A stretch of DNA of 64,000 nt from Polyangium spumosum (GTDB lineage Bacteria; Myxococcota_A; Polyangia; Polyangiales; Polyangiaceae). The position numbers were made by a program, and so were the translations under genes. The DNA lies in the NCBI RefSeq assembly GCF_009649845.1, contig NZ_WJIE01000003.1, positions 558,001-622,000 on the forward strand, given 5' to 3'. The notes beneath the pieces are model-generated. The model was not told the DNA's origin, did no database searches, and worked only from the letters and a program-made list of their open reading frames with translations. Numbering within the stretch: the stretch's first letter is position 1; each line of letters begins with the position of its first letter. Below, one piece after another: positions 9,669 to 61,997 of this stretch.

Positions 9669-10898
9669 TCAGCGCTGCGGGGGCTCGCTCGGGGACGCGG
9701 CCACCGGCAGATCGAGCTCGAACACCGTGCCCTTCTCGGGATGCGCGTACGCGCGGATCTTGCCGCCGTGCGACGCGACGATGTTCCGCACGATGCTGAG
9801 CCCGAGGCCCGAGCCCGTGCCGTCGGTCTTCGTCGTGAAGAACGGCTCGAAGATCTTCTCGAGGTGAGCGGCGTCGATGCCGTGGCCCTCGTCCTGGATG
9901 GTGATGCGCACCGTGCCCTCGGCCGCCGACGTCGCGGTCTTGATGAGCAAGCGTCCGCCGTGCTCGCGCATCGCGTGCGCCGCGTTCGTGAACAGGTTGA
10001 CGAAGACCTGCGTGAGCTGACCCGCGACGCCACGCACGAGGCGCACCTCGCCGAACTCGCGCGAGACCACGACGCGCATCTCGCCGAGCACGTGATCGCA
10101 GAACACGAGCGCGCGCTCGATCGTGTCGTGGATGGCGACGGGCGCGGGCACGGACGCGGTGGGGCGCGAGTACGCCATGAGGTCACGCGAGAAGCGCAGG
10201 ATGCGCTCGGCGGCCTCGTTGATGCGCGCGAGGCGCTCGACGTCGGCAGGGTCCGCCTCCGTGCGCAGGGCCTTCTTGTGGAGGTAGTCCGAGTACGCGA
10301 CGATCGAGGTGAGCGGGTTGTTGAGCTCGTGCACGATGCCGGCGGCGATCTGGCCGAGCGAGGCGAGCTTGCCGGCCTGGATGACCTGGGCCTCGAGCTC
10401 CTTCACCTCGCTGCCGTGCGCGCGCGCCGCTCGATGGATGCGGGCGTTGCGCAGGGCCGAGGCGAGCGCGAGCGCGAGGCGATCGATGAAGGCGTCCATC
10501 GAGCCCGTGCCCGAGAAGCGCGACTCGTCGTCGGAGGCGAGGTGCAGCGTGGAGCCTTCGTCGCCGTTGATGACGACGACACGTTCGAAGGCGTAGTCCG
10601 GGAAGAGCCGCGTGGGATCACGTGACTCGCCTTCGCTGCGCGCCCCGCGGCGAACGACGACCTGCCCGTCGGGCCCGCCGGGCACGCAGACGCCGATCGC
10701 CGCGTCGGGCAGCACCTCGAAGACGGCCGTGACGATCGACGTGGCCGCCTCCTCGGCGCTCGCGTCGGGCGGGATCTCGCACGAGGCGACGAGCAGAGCG
10801 TCGAGCCACTCGACCGGGAGATCGCGGCGCATCGCTTTCCTTTGCGTGATGGGGATCTGGGATTCCCGCATCGGAGCTTCGAGACCTTCGGCACCCAT
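9669..10898 (-). CDS. Soluble sensor histidine kinase with N-terminal GAF-like domain
   Basis: Complete cytoplasmic histidine kinase (409 residues). Residues 30-155 form a GAF-like sensory domain. The HisKA domain has the phospho-acceptor His190 in GIVHELNNPLTSIVAYSDYL. The ATPase domain has the N-box (NLFTNAAHAM, 301-310), G1 (DEGHGID, 336-342), F-box (FEPFFTTK) and G2 (GTGSGLGLSIV, 360-370). It starts 3 bp after the REC-GAF-PAS-PAS-HisKA gene. That protein lacks an ATPase domain, so this kinase is the obvious candidate partner for it. Confidence 0.92.
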   Translation of the reverse strand: MGAEGLEAPMRESQIPITQRKAMRRDLPVEWLDALLVASCEIPPDASAEEAATSIVTAVFEVLPDAAIGVCVPGGPDGQVVVRRGARSEGESRDPTRLFPDYAFERVVVINGDEGSTLHLASDDESRFSGTGSMDAFIDRLALALASALRNARIHRAARAHGSEVKELEAQVIQAGKLASLGQIAAGIVHELNNPLTSIVAYSDYLHKKALRTEADPADVERLARINEAAERILRFSRDLMAYSRPTASVPAPVAIHDTIERALVFCDHVLGEMRVVVSREFGEVRLVRGVAGQLTQVFVNLFTNAAHAMREHGGRLLIKTATSAAEGTVRITIQDEGHGIDAAHLEKIFEPFFTTKTDGTGSGLGLSIVRNIVASHGGKIRAYAHPEKGTVFELDLPVAASPSEPPQR

Positions 10899-10901
10899 CT
10901 C

Positions 10902-12932
10902 TCACCCGAGCGCTCGGTTGGGGTCCTCTTCGCTGGACCGGTCCAGGTCGATGATCTTCGCTGCCCCCACGTACGCCTTCGTTTCGTAGCGCGTGATCTT
11001 GCCGATCTTCCGGACGATCTCGGCCATTCGCTCCGCCTCCCCGAGGATCGTCGCGGCTGCGGAGCGGACGGACGCCGGGTCCTCGGCCCTCCGGTTGATG
11101 AGCTCCGCGTAGCCGAGCACGCTCGTGAGGGGCTGGTTCAGCTCGTGCGCGGCCGCGCCCGCGAGCTCCGCGATGAGCGCTTGCTTCTCTCGCGCGCGGA
11201 GCTCGTCCTGCGCCTTCGTCAGCTTCGCCTCCATGCGCAGCCGCTCGCGGAGGTCCGTGAAGAGACCAACGGAGCCGACGGGGCGGTTGTCCTCGACGAT
11301 CAGCGCGGCCGAGAGGAGCACCGGGATCAGGGTGCCGTCCTTCGCGAGCGCCTCCGTCCGGTAGCCCTCGAGCCTGCCCGGACCTCCGTGCTCCGGCGAC
11401 TTGATGAGCCGCATGATCTGGAAGGCGCGGCTCGGCGCGTAGAGGTCACGCACGTTCCTCACGCCGACGACCTCGCTCGCGCGGTAGCCGTAGATCCGCT
11501 CCGCGGCGCGGTTGAACAGGCGCACCACGCCCTCGTTGTCGGCCGAGATGATCGCGTCGACCGAGCTCTCGATGACGCGCTCGAGGAACTCCTTGGTCTT
11601 CTTGAGCTCGGCGGCCGTGGCGCGATCGTCGGTCACGTCGCGCAGGCTCACGAGGATCGCGCCGCCGTCCTCGCGGAGCACCGAGCTCGTGCTCACGCTG
11701 ATGATGCGACGTTCGCAGGCGATGTCGCTCGAACGTCGGATCGTGATGTCGGCCATGTGCGAGAAGACGTTCCGCTTGAAGCTCTTGCGGATGCGATGGA
11801 GCGTCGGGAGATCCTTCGGGTCGACGACGTCGGCGAGGCTGCTCGTGGCGAGCTGCTCCTCGGTGAGGCCCGTGATCTCGCGGGCGCGAGGGTTCGAGAA
11901 GAGGATACGTCCGTCGACGTCGACGACCAGGATGCCGTCCGCGGACGAGTGGAAGAAGTCGGCGTAACGCTCGAGCGCGGCGAGCCTCCGCTCGGCCTCG
12001 AAGCGCGCGACGTTGATCTCCTGCGTCTGATCGCGGAGCGACTGCAGGATCTTCGCGTTGCGCAGCGCGATGGCCGTCGCGTTCGCCACGGTGCGCGCGA
12101 GGGAGAGCTCGTGATCACGCATCGTCCCCGGCTGCCGGGCGCGCAGGAAGAGCACGCCCATGGGTTTGTCGTCGTAGACGATCGGGACGAGGGCGAGCGA
12201 GCGGAAGGAATTCTGCGGGAGATCGGCGCGCACGACCTCGAAGAGCGGGTGCGTCGCGGCGTCCTCGATCACGAGCACCTCGCCCGTCTCGAGCGTCCTC
12301 CGGATCTCGGGGTACTTGTCGAGGGCGATGGGCAAGTCGCGCAGATCCCGATCGTCGCTCGCGGCCACGACGTACCCGGTGTCGACGTTGTCGCCGACGA
12401 GCACGATGCTGCAGCGGTCGACCCGCGCCACCTCGGCGATACGACGTACGACCGTGAAGAGGATGTCGCGGAAGTCGAGCGTCGACGAGAGCGCTTGCGT
12501 CAGCTCGAGGACGACACGCGCGTCTCGCTCGCGACGCCAGAGCGCGTCGACGTACTCGCGCATGCGGAGCTGGCCGCGGATCCGCGCGAGCAGCTCCGCG
12601 GGGCGGAACGGCTTGCGGACGAAGTCGTCGGCGCCCACGTCGAAGGCGCGCGTGATGTCGTCGTCCGTGTCGAGCGCCGTGAGCACGACGACGGGGACGT
12701 CGCCGACGCGCGTGTCTTCGCGGAGCTGGCGCAGCACCTCGAAGCCGTCGGGCGGCGGCATGACGAGGTCGAGCAGGACGAGCGACGCGTCTCGCTCGGC
12801 GAGCCACGCGAGTGCCTCGGTGCCGGACGTCGCCGTGGCCACGGGGATGCCGGCGCCCGCGAGCGCCTGCGTCAGCACGTGTCGGCTGACGGCGTCGTCG
12901 TCGACGACGAGCACGGGGAGCGCGGGGTGCAC
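10902..12932 (-). CDS. REC-GAF-PAS-PAS-HisKA protein lacking an ATPase domain
   Basis: 676-residue signalling protein. The receiver domain (about 5-120) has the acidic pocket (VVDDDA), phospho-acceptor Asp55 (LVLLDLVMPPPDGFE), Thr85 and Lys107. A GAF domain follows at about 150-300, then two PAS domains at about 320-440 and 450-570. Next comes a HisKA four-helix segment with His596 (AHELNQPLTSVLGYAELINR). Translation ends 80 residues after that His, with no N, G1 or G2 box, and the next gene starts 3 bp later, so there is no hidden ATPase remnant. It could be a phosphotransfer protein or a regulatory subunit phosphorylated by the kinase downstream. Confidence 0.88.
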   Translation of the reverse strand: MHPALPVLVVDDDAVSRHVLTQALAGAGIPVATATSGTEALAWLAERDASLVLLDLVMPPPDGFEVLRQLREDTRVGDVPVVVLTALDTDDDITRAFDVGADDFVRKPFRPAELLARIRGQLRMREYVDALWRRERDARVVLELTQALSSTLDFRDILFTVVRRIAEVARVDRCSIVLVGDNVDTGYVVAASDDRDLRDLPIALDKYPEIRRTLETGEVLVIEDAATHPLFEVVRADLPQNSFRSLALVPIVYDDKPMGVLFLRARQPGTMRDHELSLARTVANATAIALRNAKILQSLRDQTQEINVARFEAERRLAALERYADFFHSSADGILVVDVDGRILFSNPRAREITGLTEEQLATSSLADVVDPKDLPTLHRIRKSFKRNVFSHMADITIRRSSDIACERRIISVSTSSVLREDGGAILVSLRDVTDDRATAAELKKTKEFLERVIESSVDAIISADNEGVVRLFNRAAERIYGYRASEVVGVRNVRDLYAPSRAFQIMRLIKSPEHGGPGRLEGYRTEALAKDGTLIPVLLSAALIVEDNRPVGSVGLFTDLRERLRMEAKLTKAQDELRAREKQALIAELAGAAAHELNQPLTSVLGYAELINRRAEDPASVRSAAATILGEAERMAEIVRKIGKITRYETKAYVGAAKIIDLDRSSEEDPNRALG

Positions 12933-26200: not shown

Positions 26201-26964
26201 CGGTCGGACTGCTCGTCGTCTGTGAAGCTCCTGAAGACTTCGTGGTCACGACCTGCATCGTCGATCGCACCCTGCGCGAGACCGAGACGGACTGGCTCCG
26301 CGACCTCTTCGAGCACGCGCTCGACGAGCAACGGAGCTGGGTCTCGCTCGATCCCGGCTGCCCCTTCCTCGACTGGCATCACCTCGACGAGACGGCGAAG
26401 AGGCTCGGCGTGCGCCCGCAGCGCGGACACTTCGGAGGCCGCCCCGGCGCCCCCGACGCGCTCGCGACACGCAAAGCCCTGGCCATCCTCCACGCGTTGC
26501 GCAAACAGGGACGCCCCATCTCCGTCGGCGTGCTCATCCGCGACATCGACAAACAACCGGAGCGCGAGGACGGCATCAAGCAGGCTCGCGAAGAAGCGGC
26601 CGCGCGGGATCCAGGCCTGCGCGTCGTGCTCGGCTTGCCGGATCCAGAACTCGAAGCCTGGCTCCTCGCCGGGTTCGACCCGGAAGACGCCGCCGAAGAA
26701 ACACGCCTCGCCGACTGCAAGCGTGACCTCGGCCTCGACCCTCGCACCTCGGCCCACGACCTTCGCGCCACGCACGATCAGGACCGCCGCAGCGTGAAGC
26801 GCGTGCTCACGCTCCTCACCGGCGACGACCGGGAACGAAGGGCGAAGTGTTACGAAGACGCGCCGCTCTCCACCTTGCACGCGCGAGGCCAGCGCTCCGG
26901 GCTCACGACGTTCCTGGACGAAGTCCGTTCGAAGGTGCTGCCTCTTTTTCTGCGCTCGCGCTAG
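26197..26964 (+). CDS. TOPRIM-like protein (DUF4276-like), partner of upstream ATPase
   Basis: 255 residues from the GTG at 26197, which overlaps the ATPase stop. The pattern fits a TOPRIM-like fold: an early strand with an acidic residue (GLLVVCEAPEDF, Glu10) and a later strand ending in Asp-x-Asp (GVLIRDIDKQ, Asp116 and Asp118). The motif PELEAWLLAGFD (150-161) recalls the (I/F)EAWLL/FELWLL segments of DUF4276 and RloB-like proteins found beside such ATPases. Likely role: the metal-dependent nuclease or effector arm of a two-gene defence unit. Function is inferred, and the family name is from memory of motifs. The 3-prime end overlaps the convergent STAS gene by 62 bp. Confidence 0.7.
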   Translation: MTVGLLVVCEAPEDFVVTTCIVDRTLRETETDWLRDLFEHALDEQRSWVSLDPGCPFLDWHHLDETAKRLGVRPQRGHFGGRPGAPDALATRKALAILHALRKQGRPISVGVLIRDIDKQPEREDGIKQAREEAAARDPGLRVVLGLPDPELEAWLLAGFDPEDAAEETRLADCKRDLGLDPRTSAHDLRATHDQDRRSVKRVLTLLTGDDRERRAKCYEDAPLSTLHARGQRSGLTTFLDEVRSKVLPLFLRSR

Positions 26965-27547
26965 CCGCCTCCTTCCACCGCAAGCACGCCTTGAGCCCGT
27001 GCTTCAGGTTGCGCAGCGTCACCAGATTCCCGAACGACACTCCCAGCTCCACCAGCGTCTGCGCGACGGACGGCCTCACCCCGCTGAGCACGCACCGCGC
27101 GCCGAGCAGGTCCACCGCGCGCACGATCTTCAGCAGGTGATCGGCTGTCGCCGTGTCGAGCACGTCCACGCCCGTCACGTCGAGGATCACGTAGCGGCCC
27201 TTCATGCGCGCCACCGCCTCCAGCAACGTGTCCATCACCTGCGCCGCGCGCTTCGAGTCCATCACCCCGATCAGCGGCAGCGCGAGCACGCCGTCCCAGA
27301 CCTCCAGGATCGGCGTCGACAGCTCGTGCACCGCGACCCGCAGCCGCTCGAGCGTCTCGGTCTTCTCTCGCTCCACCACGAGCTGCTGCGCGAGCTCCTG
27401 CTCGCGCGCCGACAGCTCCGAGACCAGCCGCTCCATCCGCGCCACCCGCTCCGCCGCGGCCATCTCGTGCTCGGCGAGCAGCGCCTCCAGCGTCGCCACG
27501 CGCGCGCGTAACACCGCCGTCTCGCTGTCGAGGGTCACGGGGCGCAT
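26903..27547 (-). CDS. Coiled coil plus STAS domain protein, RsbR-like
   Basis: 214 residues. An Ala/Glu/Arg-rich coiled coil (about 8-72) is followed by an RsbR-type STAS domain (about 75-190) with HELSTPILEVWDGVLALPL, the loop LDVTGVDVLDTATADHLLK, and LLGARCVLSGVRPSVAQTL. In RsbR/RsbS stressosome proteins the Thr/Ser of this loop are phosphorylated by RsbT. The STAS sequence is clearly paralogous to the C-terminus of the giant protein at 57381-61997. It overlaps the upstream GAF-like gene by 13 bp. No rsbS or rsbT lies nearby. Confidence 0.88.
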   Translation of the reverse strand: MRPVTLDSETAVLRARVATLEALLAEHEMAAAERVARMERLVSELSAREQELAQQLVVEREKTETLERLRVAVHELSTPILEVWDGVLALPLIGVMDSKRAAQVMDTLLEAVARMKGRYVILDVTGVDVLDTATADHLLKIVRAVDLLGARCVLSGVRPSVAQTLVELGVSFGNLVTLRNLKHGLKACLRWKEAASASAEKEAAPSNGLRPGTS

Positions 27548-28308
27548 GACGCCACCTCCTCCCGCGTCGCGCGGGGCGCCTCCGCCTTCGGCTCGTCCGC
27601 CTCGACGAACGACCACGGCAACACCGCGAGCTTGATCGCCAGCGCGAGCGGCCGGAAGAGCTGCGCCACCGACAAAGGCACGTGCACCTTCGAGAACAGG
27701 AGCACCGCGAACATCTGCCCCGTCGGCAAGACGCCGCCGCAGCCGACGACCGAGCGGATCCCGTAACGCGACACGAAGCTCGCCCTGGCAGGCACGTACG
27801 GGCTCTCTTCGGCGTGCTCCACGTGGAACACGTCGTACGTACGCTCCGCGAGCTCCGTGAACCTCTCGGGCCGGAGCACGCTGCTCGTCGTCAGCCCGAG
27901 CTGCGCGCAGAAGCGCGCGATCATCGGCATCTGCGCGATCGCCTCCTCGCTCGGCAGGGGGATCGCGAGGTGCCCCGCGGAGGCCATGGGATCGTTCCAC
28001 GAAGGCTCGTCGCCCGCGCTCGCGAGCAGGTGCAGGCACGTCGTCTCCGGCGCGATCGGCTCGCCGATGGCCCTCCGCTGCGCGTAGGTGCGCCGCTCCG
28101 GCGCGAGCGCGTCGAACCTCGTGGTCTCGAAGAACCTCACGAGCGCGCAGCACCGCTCGCCGGTCGCGGGCTGCGCGAGGCTCTCGTAGAGCGCGCGCGC
28201 GACGCGCACGGCCGTGTCCTCCATGCTGCGGGTGCCCTCTCCGAGCCCGCGCAGCATTGCGCCGCAGCCGATCATGTCGTCGAGCGAGAACGTCGCTAGG
28301 TCGTGCAT
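27535..28308 (-). CDS. GAF-like sensor protein, partner of STAS protein
   Basis: 257 residues from the ATG at 28308, preceded by the strong ribosome-binding site GGGGAGG. The C-terminal half has a GAF-like look (VSRYGIRSVVGCGGVLPTG then FAVLLFSKVHVPLS). The N-terminal half is helical and contains a Cys pair (GERCCALVRFFETTRF). There is no signal peptide or membrane helix. It is the first gene of a two-gene operon with the STAS protein, so it may sense a cytoplasmic signal and feed it to the STAS switch. The family is not recognised with certainty. Confidence 0.7.
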   Translation of the reverse strand: MHDLATFSLDDMIGCGAMLRGLGEGTRSMEDTAVRVARALYESLAQPATGERCCALVRFFETTRFDALAPERRTYAQRRAIGEPIAPETTCLHLLASAGDEPSWNDPMASAGHLAIPLPSEEAIAQMPMIARFCAQLGLTTSSVLRPERFTELAERTYDVFHVEHAEESPYVPARASFVSRYGIRSVVGCGGVLPTGQMFAVLLFSKVHVPLSVAQLFRPLALAIKLAVLPWSFVEADEPKAEAPRATREEVASCAP

Positions 28309-28586
28309 CGAAACCTCCCCCCGGAGTCTCCGCGCCCGCGTTTGCCTGCCATTCGTCCTCGAAAATGGGCCTTTCGCCCGGACGAAAGCGACGTTTCGAG
28401 AATGCTTCGAACCCCCGCGGCGCACAACCCGGCAGCGGCACCGTTCGAGGCTCCGGCGGAGTCGCGCGCCGCGTGCGAGCTTTCCCGATGGCGCGGCGCG
28501 TATTTCCCGAGCCGCGCCGTTCATGACGCAAGCGGCTCCAAATTCGCCGTTCGCCATGCTTTCATCCGGGCGGAAACGGAGGAGAC

Positions 28587-57380: not shown

Positions 57381-60300
57381 ATGAGTACCATTATGGGCGG
57401 CTCGACCAGCGACGGTTCGACGTCTCTTGCGGAGCTCCGCCGCGCGCCGATGGCGGTGGGCGAGTTCCTGGAGCTCGCGGCGCAGATCACGGCTGCGGTG
57501 TCGGAGCACCACGACCGCGCGGGATATCACGGCGGGTTGTGCCCCGAAAACGTCGTTATCGATAGGGGCGGGGCGGCCGTGCGGCTCCTCGGCGAAGAGG
57601 GGGACACGCGCGGCGCGCTGGACGGCGGAGCGTCCGGCACGCTCACGAACGCGGCTCTTTTGCCTTATGTCGCGCCGGAGGCGACGGGGCGAATGAACCG
57701 GCAGATCGACGCGCGCTCGGACCTCTACGCGCTCGGCTGCATGTTTCACGAGATGCTCTCGGGCTCACCGCCCTTCACGGCAGACGACCTGCTCGGCTGG
57801 ATCCACGCGCACGTGGCGCGCACGCCGCCGGCGCTCACGAGCGTCGCGCCGGGCGTGCCTCGGCTGCTCTCGGATATCGTGGCGAAGCTCTTGTCGAAGA
57901 TGGCGGAGGACCGCTATCAGAGCGCCCGTGGCCTCCTCCACGACCTCTCCCGCTACCGCGCGGCGTGGGGCGAGCCCGAGGCCGCCGTCGATTTTCCGCT
58001 CGGCGAGCGCGACATCCCGGAGCGGTTCTGGATGCCCTCGACGCTTTATGGAAGAGATCAAGAGATCGAGGCGCTCCTCCACGCCTTCGACGACGTCGTG
58101 GCCAAAGAGCACCCCGCGCTCGTGCTCGTCGCGGGGCCGTCGGGGATCGGCAAATCGTCGCTGGTACGTGAGCTCGAGCGGCCCGTCGTGCGCGAGAGGG
58201 GAATCTTCGCGTCCGGGAAATTCGACCAGCAACGAGAGATCCCCTATGCGACGATCGCGCAAGCATTCGGGCAAATCTCGCGGCAGCTCCTCACCGAGAG
58301 CGAGGCGCGCCTGGTCTCCATCCGCGAGCGGCTCCTCGCGGCCGTGGCTCCGAACGGCAGGCTCCTCATCGACCTCGTGCGCGAGCTCGAGCTCATCCTC
58401 GGCGCGCAGCCGCCCGTGCCGCCCGCTGCCCCGCAGGAGGCGCAGAACCGCCTGAACAAGGTCTTCCTCGACCTGATCTCGGTGCTCGCATCCAAGGAGC
58501 ACCCGCTGGTCCTCTTCCTGGATGACATGCAATGGGCCGATCCAGGCAGCCTCTCCTTGATCCAGAACGTACTCGCGAGTCCGGGCGAGCGCCATTTGCT
58601 CGTCGTGTGCGCTTACCGCGACGGCGAGGTCGACGCCGATCACCCGTGGGCCGGCGTGATGAGGGCGCTGGAACAGACAGCCCTGACCATCGTCCGCGTC
58701 ACGCCCGCGGCGCTCACCGACGAGGACGTGTGCGACCTCGTGACCGATACCTTCCGCTGCGACCCGGGCTACGCCGCGCCGCTCGCGGCGCAGGTCCGGC
58801 GCCGGACCGCCGGCAACCCATTCTTCGCGGCGCAAATGCTCAGCGCGCTCTGCCAGGAGGGCATCATCACCTTCGACCGCGCGAGCGGGTCGTGGCGCTG
58901 GGACATGGCAGCCTTCGGCGCGAGGGGTTTGTCGGGGGACGTGCTCGCGCTCCTTTCCGACAAGCTCGGGAGGCTGCCTCCGCCGAGCCAGCGCGTGCTC
59001 GCGCTCGCAGCTTGTATCGGCACCACGTTCGACCCGGCGATGCTCGCCGTGGCCGCGGGTTGCTCCGAGGACGAGATCGGCGCGCGCCTGCGCGAGCTCG
59101 CGCGGGCGGGATTCGTGGAGATCGACGAGCAAAGCGCGCGGTTCGTGCACGATCGCATCTGGCAGGCCGCTTATGCGCTCATCCCCGAGGAGGAGAAGGC
59201 GTCATTGCACCTCGACATCGGGCGGCGGCTCGTCGCGGCCCGAGGCGAGGCGGACCTGTTCGAGCGCGTGCGCCAACTCGAGCGCGGCGCCGCGTTGATC
59301 AGCGATCCGGCCGAGCGGCTGAAGCTGGCCGAGCTCGACGTGCTCGCCGCGCGCAAGGCCATGCAATCGGCCGCGTTTCGCGCCGCCGCTCGGTACGCAG
59401 CCGCGGGTCGCGCGCTCTTGCCCCCCGATGCCTGGGAAGCGCATTACGAGCTCACCTACGCGCTGCACGTCGAGGGCGCGGCATGCGAGAACGCGAGCGG
59501 GCGCTTCGACGAGGCGAGCGCGCTCCTCTCCGCCGCGCTCGAGCACGCGCGTTCGACGGCGGACCGCCTGGTGATCCACCGCGTTCGTATGGAGCTGCGC
59601 ACCAATCGAGGCGATTTCGCGGGGGCTTGCCTCGAGGCGATCACCTGCCTCGCGCCCCTCGGGATCACGCTGTCGCTCCATCCCTCCGCCGACGACGTCG
59701 GCGAGGCGTGCGCGCGGGTCCTCGGCACGCTCGGGGACAGGTCGATCGAGCCGCTGATCGACCACGACGAGCTCCGGGACGCCGACATGGCAGCAGCGCT
59801 CGCCGTGCTGGCGACGGGGTATGCGCCCGCCCATTGGGTGGATTTGAAGCTCGTGAACCTGCTCGCGTGCTGGATGGTCGAGCTGTCGCTCCGGTACGGC
59901 AATGCGGACGCGTCGGTGCAGGGATACGTCGGCTTCGGCGCGTTGCTCGGGCCGGTCTATGGCCGATACCTCGAGGGCGCGCGGTTCTGCCGGCTCGGAT
60001 ATCACCTCGCGAAGCGACGCGGGAACGCCGCGCACATCACGCGCGCCTGCAACGTCTACGGCGGCCTGGCGAGCTTCTGGACCGAACCATTGCAGGTAGG
60101 CATCGCGCTCGCCGCCGAGGGCCTGGAGTCGGCCATGCAGGCGGGCGATCTGACGTATGCCAGTTTCAACCTCGTCCAGCACGTCTTTTTCATGATCCAG
60201 GCCGGCGCGCCGCTCGCCGAGGCCTGTCGCGAATTCGAGGAGCGGACGGAGTTTGCCCGAGACAACCAGCTCCCCCTCGCGGCGCCTTATCTCCTCGGCG

Positions 60301-61997
60301 TACGCGGGTTCCTCGCGTGTATGCTCGGCAAGACCCCGAGCCTCTCGAGCTTCGACGAGGAGGGCCTCGAGGACGCGGCGGTCGAGCGGCAGATCCTGGC
60401 CACCGGCCCGCTGTTCGAGGACACCTACCTCGCGCACAAGATCCTCGGGCGCACGATCGCCCGCCGTCACGCGGAGGTCCTCCCCCTTTCGGCGCGCGCG
60501 CAGGCGATCGCGCCGCTCGTGCCCGGCCTCGTGTACCGCCCGGCCGTCGTGTTTTGCACGGCGCTCGCGCTCGCGGCCCTCCACGACGACGCGCCGCCGG
60601 ACAAACGGGCGTCGATCCTCGAGGAGCTGCGCGCGGCGGCGGCGCAGCTCGGCACGTGGGCGCAATGCGGGCCGGCCAATCACGAGCCGAGGCACGCCCT
60701 CGTCCTCGCCGAGCTCGCGCGCGTCGAGGGGCGCGAGCTCGAGGCGACGCGGCTCTACGATCGCGCAATCGAGCTCGCGCGGAGGTACGGGTTCGTCAAC
60801 GACGAGGCGATGGCTCACGAGGCGGCCGCGCGGTTCTTCGAGGCGCGTGGTTATCCGAGCATGTTCCGCGCCTGCCTGCGGGCGGCGCGCGACGCTTATG
60901 CGCGCTGGGGCGCCGTCGCAAAGGTGGCTGAGCTCGAACGGGAAGGGGCCCTGGACGAGCGGCCGCCGCATACGCCCCCCAGGCCTCCGGCCGCGAGCGC
61001 GTCGCAGCCGTCGCCTGCTTCGCGGGAGGTGGTCGGCCCGCCGATCGAGGCGCTGGTCGTGGTGAAGGCAATGCAGGCGATCTCGAGGCAGATCAGGACG
61101 GAGGAGCTGCTCTCGTCCTTGCTCCGCATCATGATCGAGCACGCGGGCGCCGAGCGGTGTGATCTATTGTTCGTGCAGCGCGAGGAGCTCCTGCTCGCGG
61201 CCTCGGCCCTCTCCGATCACCGCGGAATCGAGGTCTCCGTGAAGGACCCGCCGGAGCCGCCCTCGCCGCGCCAGGTGCCGCATTCCATCGTGGGTTATGT
61301 CAAGCGCACGCGCGAGCCCCTGATCTTGGGCGACGCGGCCCGCGAGGGCATGTTCTCGACGGACGAAGAGGTCGCGCGCCGAAAGACGCGTTCGGTCCTG
61401 TGCATGCCGATCATGCGACAATCGACGCTCGTGGGCGTGATCTACCTCGAGAACAACCTGGCGCCGCAGGTGTTCACGAAAGAGCGCCTCGAGACGCTCG
61501 AGCTGCTCGCGTCCCAGGCGGCGATCTCGCTCGAAAATGCGGCGCTCTACGAGGACGTGGCGCACGAGCGGCGGAGGGCCGAGGACGCGCTCCGCGACAA
61601 CGTCGCGCTCATCGCGCGGCAAGAAGAGGCGATCCGGAGCCTGTCCACGCCGATCATCGAGGTTTGGCAGGGCGTCCTCGCGATGCCGCTCTTCGGCGCG
61701 ATCGACGAGCGACGCGCGGCGCAGATGATGACGGTCCTGCTCGACGCCGTGGTCGGCCAGCAATGCCGGTATGCGGTCCTCGACGTGACGGGGGTGGCGA
61801 CGATCGACGCTGCGACGGCGGATCACCTCGTCCGGCTGGTGCGCGCCGTGCAATTGCTCGGGGCCAAGGGTATCGTGGCGGGCATGCGCCCGGAGGTGGC
61901 GCGGACCATCGTCTCGCTGGGGGTGGACCTCGCGGGTATCGAGACCCGGGCCAACCTGCGGGAGGCGCTGGTCCGGTGCATGCGCAATGCGGGGTAG
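57381..61997 (+). CDS. Giant pseudokinase - STAND ATPase - GAF - STAS signalling protein
   Basis: 1538 residues. The N-terminal region (about 15-195) is a Ser/Thr-kinase-like domain without a glycine loop. The HRD motif is replaced by YHGGLCPEN (50-56), losing the catalytic Asp, and no DFG is present, so it should be inactive. An ATPase module follows: P-loop GPSGIGKSSLV (252-262) and Walker B LVLFLDDMQWAD (376-387). A long TPR-like helical region (about 640-1190), a GAF domain (about 1220-1400) and an RsbR-like STAS domain (1420-1535, LDVTGVATIDAATADHL) complete it. The related trifunctional family normally ends in a histidine kinase; here STAS replaces it. A GGAG ribosome-binding site lies 10 bp upstream; the preceding 255 bp (57126-57380) hold no gene. 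Confidence 0.9.
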   Translation: MSTIMGGSTSDGSTSLAELRRAPMAVGEFLELAAQITAAVSEHHDRAGYHGGLCPENVVIDRGGAAVRLLGEEGDTRGALDGGASGTLTNAALLPYVAPEATGRMNRQIDARSDLYALGCMFHEMLSGSPPFTADDLLGWIHAHVARTPPALTSVAPGVPRLLSDIVAKLLSKMAEDRYQSARGLLHDLSRYRAAWGEPEAAVDFPLGERDIPERFWMPSTLYGRDQEIEALLHAFDDVVAKEHPALVLVAGPSGIGKSSLVRELERPVVRERGIFASGKFDQQREIPYATIAQAFGQISRQLLTESEARLVSIRERLLAAVAPNGRLLIDLVRELELILGAQPPVPPAAPQEAQNRLNKVFLDLISVLASKEHPLVLFLDDMQWADPGSLSLIQNVLASPGERHLLVVCAYRDGEVDADHPWAGVMRALEQTALTIVRVTPAALTDEDVCDLVTDTFRCDPGYAAPLAAQVRRRTAGNPFFAAQMLSALCQEGIITFDRASGSWRWDMAAFGARGLSGDVLALLSDKLGRLPPPSQRVLALAACIGTTFDPAMLAVAAGCSEDEIGARLRELARAGFVEIDEQSARFVHDRIWQAAYALIPEEEKASLHLDIGRRLVAARGEADLFERVRQLERGAALISDPAERLKLAELDVLAARKAMQSAAFRAAARYAAAGRALLPPDAWEAHYELTYALHVEGAACENASGRFDEASALLSAALEHARSTADRLVIHRVRMELRTNRGDFAGACLEAITCLAPLGITLSLHPSADDVGEACARVLGTLGDRSIEPLIDHDELRDADMAAALAVLATGYAPAHWVDLKLVNLLACWMVELSLRYGNADASVQGYVGFGALLGPVYGRYLEGARFCRLGYHLAKRRGNAAHITRACNVYGGLASFWTEPLQVGIALAAEGLESAMQAGDLTYASFNLVQHVFFMIQAGAPLAEACREFEERTEFARDNQLPLAAPYLLGVRGFLACMLGKTPSLSSFDEEGLEDAAVERQILATGPLFEDTYLAHKILGRTIARRHAEVLPLSARAQAIAPLVPGLVYRPAVVFCTALALAALHDDAPPDKRASILEELRAAAAQLGTWAQCGPANHEPRHALVLAELARVEGRELEATRLYDRAIELARRYGFVNDEAMAHEAAARFFEARGYPSMFRACLRAARDAYARWGAVAKVAELEREGALDERPPHTPPRPPAASASQPSPASREVVGPPIEALVVVKAMQAISRQIRTEELLSSLLRIMIEHAGAERCDLLFVQREELLLAASALSDHRGIEVSVKDPPEPPSPRQVPHSIVGYVKRTREPLILGDAAREGMFSTDEEVARRKTRSVLCMPIMRQSTLVGVIYLENNLAPQVFTKERLETLELLASQAAISLENAALYEDVAHERRRAEDALRDNVALIARQEEAIRSLSTPIIEVWQGVLAMPLFGAIDERRAAQMMTVLLDAVVGQQCRYAVLDVTGVATIDAATADHLVRLVRAVQLLGAKGIVAGMRPEVARTIVSLGVDLAGIETRANLREALVRCMRNAG

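Follow-up and report, generated by a model that had tools for sequence, protein, structure and literature searches.

A protein of 1538 aa encoded in the window (the whole 64,000-nucleotide stretch of Polyangium spumosum DNA analysed here) joins the C-lobe of a Ser/Thr kinase, without its N-lobe, to an AAA_16 ATPase domain, a helical/TPR-like region, a GAF domain and a C-terminal RsbR-type STAS domain. We hold with moderate confidence that it is a giant cytoplasmic sensor and a likely input to the stressosome, in which the C-lobe is non-catalytic and the STAS domain either works independently of phosphorylation or is permanently primed. The first-pass annotation had placed the gene at 57381-61997, and one uninterrupted open reading frame on the forward strand occupies exactly this interval. 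The features of the gene are collected in Table 1.

Table 1. Features of the gene and its product, with window positions and the evidence for each
Feature	Residues (aa)	Window positions	Strand	Evidence
Whole gene: kinase C-lobe, AAA_16, helical/TPR, GAF, linker helix, RsbR-type STAS		57381..61997	+	ORF, translation, Pfam
Kinase C-lobe without N-lobe	16-195	57426..57965	+	Pfam, PknB match, model, Foldseek
Catalytic-loop equivalent HGGLCPEN, HRD Asp lost	50-57	57528..57551	+	Alignments, letters checked
DFG equivalent GEE	71-73	57591..57599	+	Alignment, letters checked
Retained APE motif YVAPE	96-100	57666..57680	+	Nine-protein alignment, letters checked
AAA_16/STAND-like ATPase domain, Walker A and B intact	221-409	58041..58607	+	Pfam 1.8e-41
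Helical/TPR-like region	about 530-1180	58968..60920	+	Weak TPR_12; aligns with relatives
GAF domain	1241-1384	61101..61532	+	Pfam 2e-15; Foldseek GAF domains
Long predicted helix joining GAF and STAS	1367-1420	61479..61640	+	AlphaFold2 model
RsbR-type STAS domain	1425-1529	61653..61967	+	Pfam 3.2e-11; PDB 7o0i; Foldseek
Glu at RsbR priming phosphosite (Listeria T175, Bacillus T171)	1443	61707..61709	+	Alignment, codon checked
Ala at second RsbR phosphosite (Listeria T209, Bacillus T205)	1477	61809..61811	+	Alignment, codon checked

A kinase C-lobe without an N-lobe

The N-terminal domain is not a complete Ser/Thr kinase domain, as its N-lobe is missing. The Pfam Pkinase match (aa 24-180, E 2.1e-9) covers positions 95-253 of the 263-position model only, and in the match against solved structures the similarity to PknB starts at residue 110 of the PknB chain. 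None of the four active-kinase motifs is present: the glycine loop and the ATP-binding Lys are absent, HRD is replaced by HGGL and DFG by GEE. The loss of the glycine loop, the HRD Asp and DFG had been noted before, and both the alignments and the checked letters confirm it. The term pseudokinase, which had been chosen for the domain, is right in that the catalytic motifs are gone; however, they are not just mutated, but the whole N-lobe is absent.

In eight other proteins the kinase-like part begins at nearly the same place in the fold. L162-L167 come from five other genomes of the genus, two of them from G003, and L168 and L169 from G023, a genome of another genus. Thus nine N-lobe-less proteins were found in seven genomes, i. 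e. in all six genus genomes searched and in one of another genus, and eight of the nine end in STAS. In all nine an in-frame stop lies at most 42 codons 5' of the first start; in the window gene it lies just upstream. A tblastn search (E up to 1) with 11 N-lobes, over the 1 kb in front of each gene, gave no convincing N-lobe relic; the best stray match (E 0.024) was on the opposite strand, and both positive controls were recovered. The upstream stops and the empty tblastn search rule out that a frameshift or a misplaced start conceals an N-lobe upstream. An assembly error private to this genome is ruled out by the eight further proteins that start alike.

As far as the sequences tell, the truncation is real and old, and the nine proteins look like one group. 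In the STAS tree, a quick tree, the window protein and seven others form one branch (support 95.8). The core tree, from which six rows were dropped because they were short, cut or poor, has the window protein and the eight others in one branch at 88, with the long-branch, histidine kinase-ended L215 inside it and beside the window protein at 86. In a second, quick core tree the window protein stands apart from the N-lobe-less group, as the partner of L215 (support 84). When L215 was left out of the core tree, the window protein and five members stood on one side of a branch with a support of 68, by which membership is neither shown nor rejected. The window protein appears to belong to the group by the STAS tree and likely does so by its core. 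The other STAS-bearing members carry an insertion between GAF and STAS, which on L162 is a PAS domain (Pfam) and which the window protein does not have.

A truncated domain could be nothing but the functionless remnant of a 5' truncation, in a protein produced by domain shuffling and decay whose STAS domain arrived by chance fusion. We regard this as unlikely. In the five orthologues L162-L166 the dN/dS of the C-lobe is 0.21 and lies within the range of 0.07-0.39 of their other domains (AAA 0.16, TPR stretch 0.39, GAF 0.07, PAS 0.18, STAS 0.21); in a comparison set of five histidine kinase-ended orthologues, four of them active-like, the values are 0.31 for the C-lobe and 0.39 for the N-lobe. 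In L162-L166 the C-lobe is thus kept under purifying selection and is not decaying. Yet these values do not come from the C-lobe of the window protein, which is not in the set as no close orthologue was found, and this speaks for decay. A search with six short patterns, which is non-exhaustive and may omit the genome of the window, gave 27 loci in named genomes and no close orthologue among them. Against decay, the N-lobe-less start is common to nine proteins in seven genomes, and in their alignment D114, Y116, G119 and R178 are invariant, as are P99 and E100 together with P95, Y96 and A98. The C-lobe of the window protein is also predicted to be well folded. The AlphaFold2 model of aa 1-440 (47 sequences) has a mean pLDDT of 88.1; the C-lobe is mostly above 80 except for the stretch 73-85, the expected place of the activation loop, and only this stretch and the N-terminal tail (1-9) fall below 50. 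In a Foldseek search with the C-lobe model PknB came first (E 1.9e-10).

That the domain still phosphorylates, with an N-lobe supplied in trans or the nucleotide held in some other way, seems very improbable. One member of the group (L169/L115) does align Asp at both the HRD and the DFG position, but the other eight of the nine lack both Asp residues, and the search for an N-lobe, confined to 1 kb upstream of the nine genes, gave none. Since the C-lobe cannot bind ATP in the usual way, it is most likely a docking element or a structural cap, and as such it would sit beside the ATPase. The group seems to be a clear example of a kinase lobe retained for non-catalytic use.

Two further loci were noticed. 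L169 (L169:3945-8132, in G023) stops soon after the GAF domain and is an output-less half-kinase; no STAS was found in any frame of its 13 kb stretch. Another N-lobe-less start occurs in L122 (Paenibacillus sp. 32352), whose near relatives L124 and L125 keep the N-lobe.

Relatives and their output domains

By their core, the nearest relatives of the window protein are histidine kinase-ended proteins of its own genome (41-43% identity over about aa 11-1417). The window protein has the AAA_16, helical/TPR and GAF core of the trifunctional kinase family with a STAS domain in place of the C-terminal histidine kinase; no HisKA or HATPase match was found in it at E 0.01 (Pfam). Walker A (GPSGIGKS) and Walker B (LFLDDMQW) of the AAA_16 domain are intact, and G252, S254, G255, G257, K258 and D381 are among its invariant columns in the nine-protein alignment; by these motifs it is a predicted ATPase of the STAND/AAA_16 type. 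The TPR assignment is weak by profile (TPR_12, E 0.0015), and the stretch aligns along the family.

Fifteen other proteins of the genome match the query over most of its length: six are histidine kinase-ended and nine STAS-ended, and one of the nine (L145) has no kinase match. The 97 family rows comprise 52 histidine kinase ends, 20 STAS ends (the window protein included) and 25 open ends; all 20 STAS-ended rows are from the genus or from G023, where sampling was densest, too. A scan of five rows whose ends had not been assigned showed that L217 and L131 end in a SpoIIE phosphatase, L216 in a nucleotide cyclase and L220 in an HWE histidine kinase; in L123, which is cut at the contig end, no output domain was seen. 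Judged by these ends, many members of the family have a histidine kinase, but the family does not require one. The STAS-ended proteins are scattered over three or more separate positions of the core tree, which suggests that outputs were swapped repeatedly; the group of the window protein is nested in a mostly histidine kinase-ended branch. L131 comes from a Spirochaetota MAG, and partner-switching ends occur in two forms on this chassis.

A motif census gave active-like kinases in 31 of 43 histidine kinase-ended rows, in 4 of 10 STAS-ended rows with an N-lobe and in none of 10 STAS-ended rows without a detectable N-lobe, counts that are no association test because the rows are related by descent. 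The last ten are eight members of the group plus L009/L151, which stand on a separate branch. The census covered 95 of the 97 rows, two with the ATPase near the frame start having been dropped; the counts leave out 32 rows whose end was then unassigned, of which 20 are active-like. It used an earlier end assignment than the totals of 52, 20 and 25. The earlier statement that proteins of this family normally have an active kinase and a histidine kinase therefore stands in so far as this is common, but 12 of the 43 histidine kinase-ended rows are not active-like, and SpoIIE and cyclase ends exist. Kinase decay is thus common in the family and outputs vary widely, with no output domain at all in L169, which speaks for the functionless remnant considered above.

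The first-pass annotation had further linked the loss of the kinase motifs to the STAS end. At the level of the family this link does not hold, as homologues of just the kind that contradict it exist: L007, L008, L144 and L146 (4 of the 20) are STAS-ended and retain all four catalytic residues, and for L144 and L146 Pfam confirms kinase, AAA, GAF and STAS. Hence the kinase loss belongs to the N-lobe-less group and not to the STAS end. It was not misread, since eight other proteins share it, but it does not follow from the output domain.

No STAS-ended relative was found among 23 rows at the phylum level (best 3 candidates per genome) or among the order loci L214-L236 (best 4 candidates per genome). 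A second search of the order for full-length proteins with fused GAF-STAS (frames of at least 1400 aa, best 18 candidates per genome) found them in the genus only, in 4 of 110 genomes; it did not recover the window protein itself, and G023 was not among its matches. G026 matches the GAF-STAS query only up to position 207 of 348.

Elsewhere in the window a receiver-GAF-PAS-PAS-HisKA frame without a HATPase match (10902-12932, reverse strand) lies three bases from a HisKA-HATPase frame (9669-10898, reverse strand). They may be two genes, or one hybrid kinase that is split or frameshifted.

The STAS domain and the stressosome genes

Among solved structures the STAS domain best matches the stressosome RsbR 7o0i (E 2.1e-26), and Foldseek with its model found the stressosome 7b0u and RsbS 6jhk (TM 0.93 by RsbS length), so the RsbR-like STAS end of the first-pass annotation is well founded. 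The domain carries the RsbR linker signature LSTPIIEVW. Its identity is 45.5% to RsbR and 26.7% to RsbS of the RsbRSTX cluster in the same genome, and the domain falls into the same tree branch as the cluster RsbR (support 81). With a C-terminal RsbR-type STAS domain and the linker signature, the protein is a putative RsbR co-antagonist. In the AlphaFold2 model of aa 1225-1538 (20 sequences; pLDDT 86.6, pTM 0.54), in which the arrangement of GAF and STAS is unsure, a helix of 54 residues (positions 143-196 of the fragment) is predicted between the two domains.

The genome (G000) has a complete cluster of RsbR (PAS-STAS), RsbS, RsbT and RsbX at L147:1809-4523 (G000:C11:198500-205500), with the Pfam matches STAS, STAS, HATPase_c_2 and SpoIIE; RsbS lies at L147:2795-3220, and the last of the four is a SpoIIE phosphatase of the RsbX kind. 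Each of the five other genus genomes has one counterpart of RsbT that is 95-96% identical (E up to 1e-6). A second RsbT/RsbW-like ATPase, 31-34% identical to RsbT, adjoins the RsbT cluster in six genus genomes, and G005 has a further one elsewhere. Candidate RsbT/RsbW-like kinases, for which a search of the genome had been suggested, are present. Given the RsbR-type STAS domain and the conserved RsbRSTX cluster, stressosome partner switching is the likeliest output. This part of the earlier proposal is retained; switching through Thr residues of the STAS domain is not.

The genome has 77 STAS matches, compared with at least 90-91 in five congeners, for which no more than 91 were scored, 76 in G023 under the same limit and 0-12 in 32 other genomes. 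One of the 77 is the cluster RsbS and one (C16:68412), which was left out of the STAS tree, is not RsbR-like; the remaining 75 are called RsbR-type by exclusion and by the tree, 47 of them with the strict linker motif. There are also ten SpoIIE phosphatase matches and 57 HATPase_c_2 matches, 54 of the latter in frames of at least 400 aa.

The STAS domain could also act outside the stressosome, either on another partner-switching kinase (an RsbW-like anti-sigma factor or HATPase_c_2 protein) or for dimerisation only. The 57 HATPase_c_2 matches, most of them in long frames, and the second ATPase in the RsbT cluster of six genus genomes are in line with this, and the window gene is unlinked to the RsbRST cluster. 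The gene is solitary, with unrelated neighbours (DNA-alkylation repair, haem-type cytochrome), and no neighbour is shared with the few kb flanking the eight other members, so there is no operon link to RsbT, which counts against the stressosome reading. Two of the residues that were mutated in Listeria at the RsbR-RsbS interface also count against it: T254 and R264 are kept, but Q217 and E220 are Arg in the window STAS. The cluster RsbR of the same genome itself differs at three of these four residues. The RsbR linker signature and the position in the tree next to RsbR-type domains and not to RsbS nevertheless favour the stressosome, and we consider action outside of it rather unlikely. At three of the orthologous loci, L162, L163 and L165, a gene for an alpha/beta-hydrolase (BD-FAE) is found upstream in the same orientation; the neighbour at the window locus differs.

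The two sites at which RsbR is phosphorylated are both replaced. Listeria RsbR is phosphorylated on T175 and T209 and Bacillus RsbR on T171 and T205, according to an excerpt of PMC6614362; aligned to the Listeria sites, the window protein has E1443 and A1477 and thus no Thr/Ser phosphosite of the RsbR type. The Thr of the LDVTGV loop is not the phosphosite but a different, conserved residue, and the phosphorylation test that had been suggested for the STAS Thr residues loses its object. At the priming position seven of the eight STAS-bearing members of the group have Glu, all seven of them in the genus, and L168 (G023) has Thr; the Glu may go back to one change inside the genus. At the second position five have Thr, two Ala and one Pro. 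A second RsbR-type STAS protein in the window (26903-28531, reverse strand, 542 aa) has Ser and Thr at the RsbR phosphosites. A count over all 77 STAS domains gave 16 with Ser/Thr at both sites, 17 with it at one and 44 with it at none. As most of them have lost phosphosites, drift after many duplications is the plain alternative.

A preprint on Listeria (PMC12154155) interprets the T175E structure as a primed state and ascribes a damping effect to phosphorylated T209, so that Glu and Ala at these sites could give a primed, non-damped input. Against so simple a reading, the preprint also reports a shifted RsbR:RsbS ratio in T209A and a disturbed core in T175E, a form that was not makeable in vivo; Glu and Ala may hence not be neutral. 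With Glu where priming and Ala where damping phosphorylation would occur, the signal would be phosphorylation-independent or permanently primed and not switched by RsbT.

The stressosome reading, taken step by step, would be as follows. The helical/TPR and GAF parts would read signals, and the intact AAA_16 module would turn over ATP and gate the signal. The long helix would carry the change from the GAF side to the STAS domain, which would join a stressosome core formed by RsbT and the only RsbS recognised in the genome, and the state of the STAS domain would alter the amount of free RsbT kinase. Whether the stressosome signals without RsbR phosphorylation is a question raised by engineered B.subtilis mutants; in the excerpt of PMC3944199 the T171A/S59A stressosome keeps significant signalling. 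Many native RsbR-type domains without phosphosites beside one conserved RsbT make the question testable with native proteins. Possibly, and we offer this more tentatively, the conserved half-kinase is a selected C-lobe that caps the STAND ATPase and is wired to the stressosome by a STAS domain with replaced phosphosites, i. e. a natural phosphorylation-independent or pre-primed input. In such a stressosome a single RsbT and a single RsbS-like protein would work for about 75 RsbR-type proteins, of which over half have no phosphosites.

Comparison with known systems

The trifunctional family is named for Ser/Thr kinase, ATPase and sensor histidine kinase, and HstK and Mak2/3 have the ATPase part. 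The order of kinase-like domain, AAA_16, helical/TPR region and GAF is the same in the window protein as in the histidine kinase-ended proteins of its genome; unlike the trifunctional kinases, it has no kinase N-lobe, and STAS replaces the histidine kinase. A large signalling chassis thus bears a partner-switching end in the place of the histidine kinase of its nearest relatives. For HstK of Anabaena and the fungal Mak2/Mak3 type, kinase, GAF and histidine kinase parts are described in excerpts of PMC1262709, PMC2176072 and PMC5383687. The best NCBIfam match, TIGR03903 (TOMM system kinase/cyclase fusion; aa 221-680, E 5.7e-32), reaches 110.6 bits against a cut-off of 705.75, and the window protein has no cyclase.

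With the RsbR co-antagonists (RsbRA, YtvA, and the RsbR of Listeria and Vibrio) the window protein shares a sensor part, a helical linker and the RsbR-type STAS domain. It differs from them by the roughly 1400 aa of C-lobe, ATPase, TPR and GAF that precede the STAS domain and by the replacement of both phosphosites. The matched RsbR chains have 278-306 aa in all, and the far larger part in front of STAS counts against the stressosome reading.

A half-kinase fused to STAS did not turn up in searches of one open-access library, which were partly aimed elsewhere and give a weak negative. The nearest description is that of Sorangium cellulosum, for which the excerpt of a 2010 study (PMC2887360) reports 71 STAS (COG1366) proteins that can be fused to kinases. 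A STAS-rich genome and the fusion of STAS to eukaryotic-like kinases are common to both cases; the likeness is one of description, as that excerpt gives no domain order, kinase state, phosphosites or half-kinase. The kinase-STAS fusion was therefore already known from Sorangium, and the outputs of the family vary; the finding itself is real and, as a half-kinase in place of a mutated kinase, sharper than the first-pass annotation had it.
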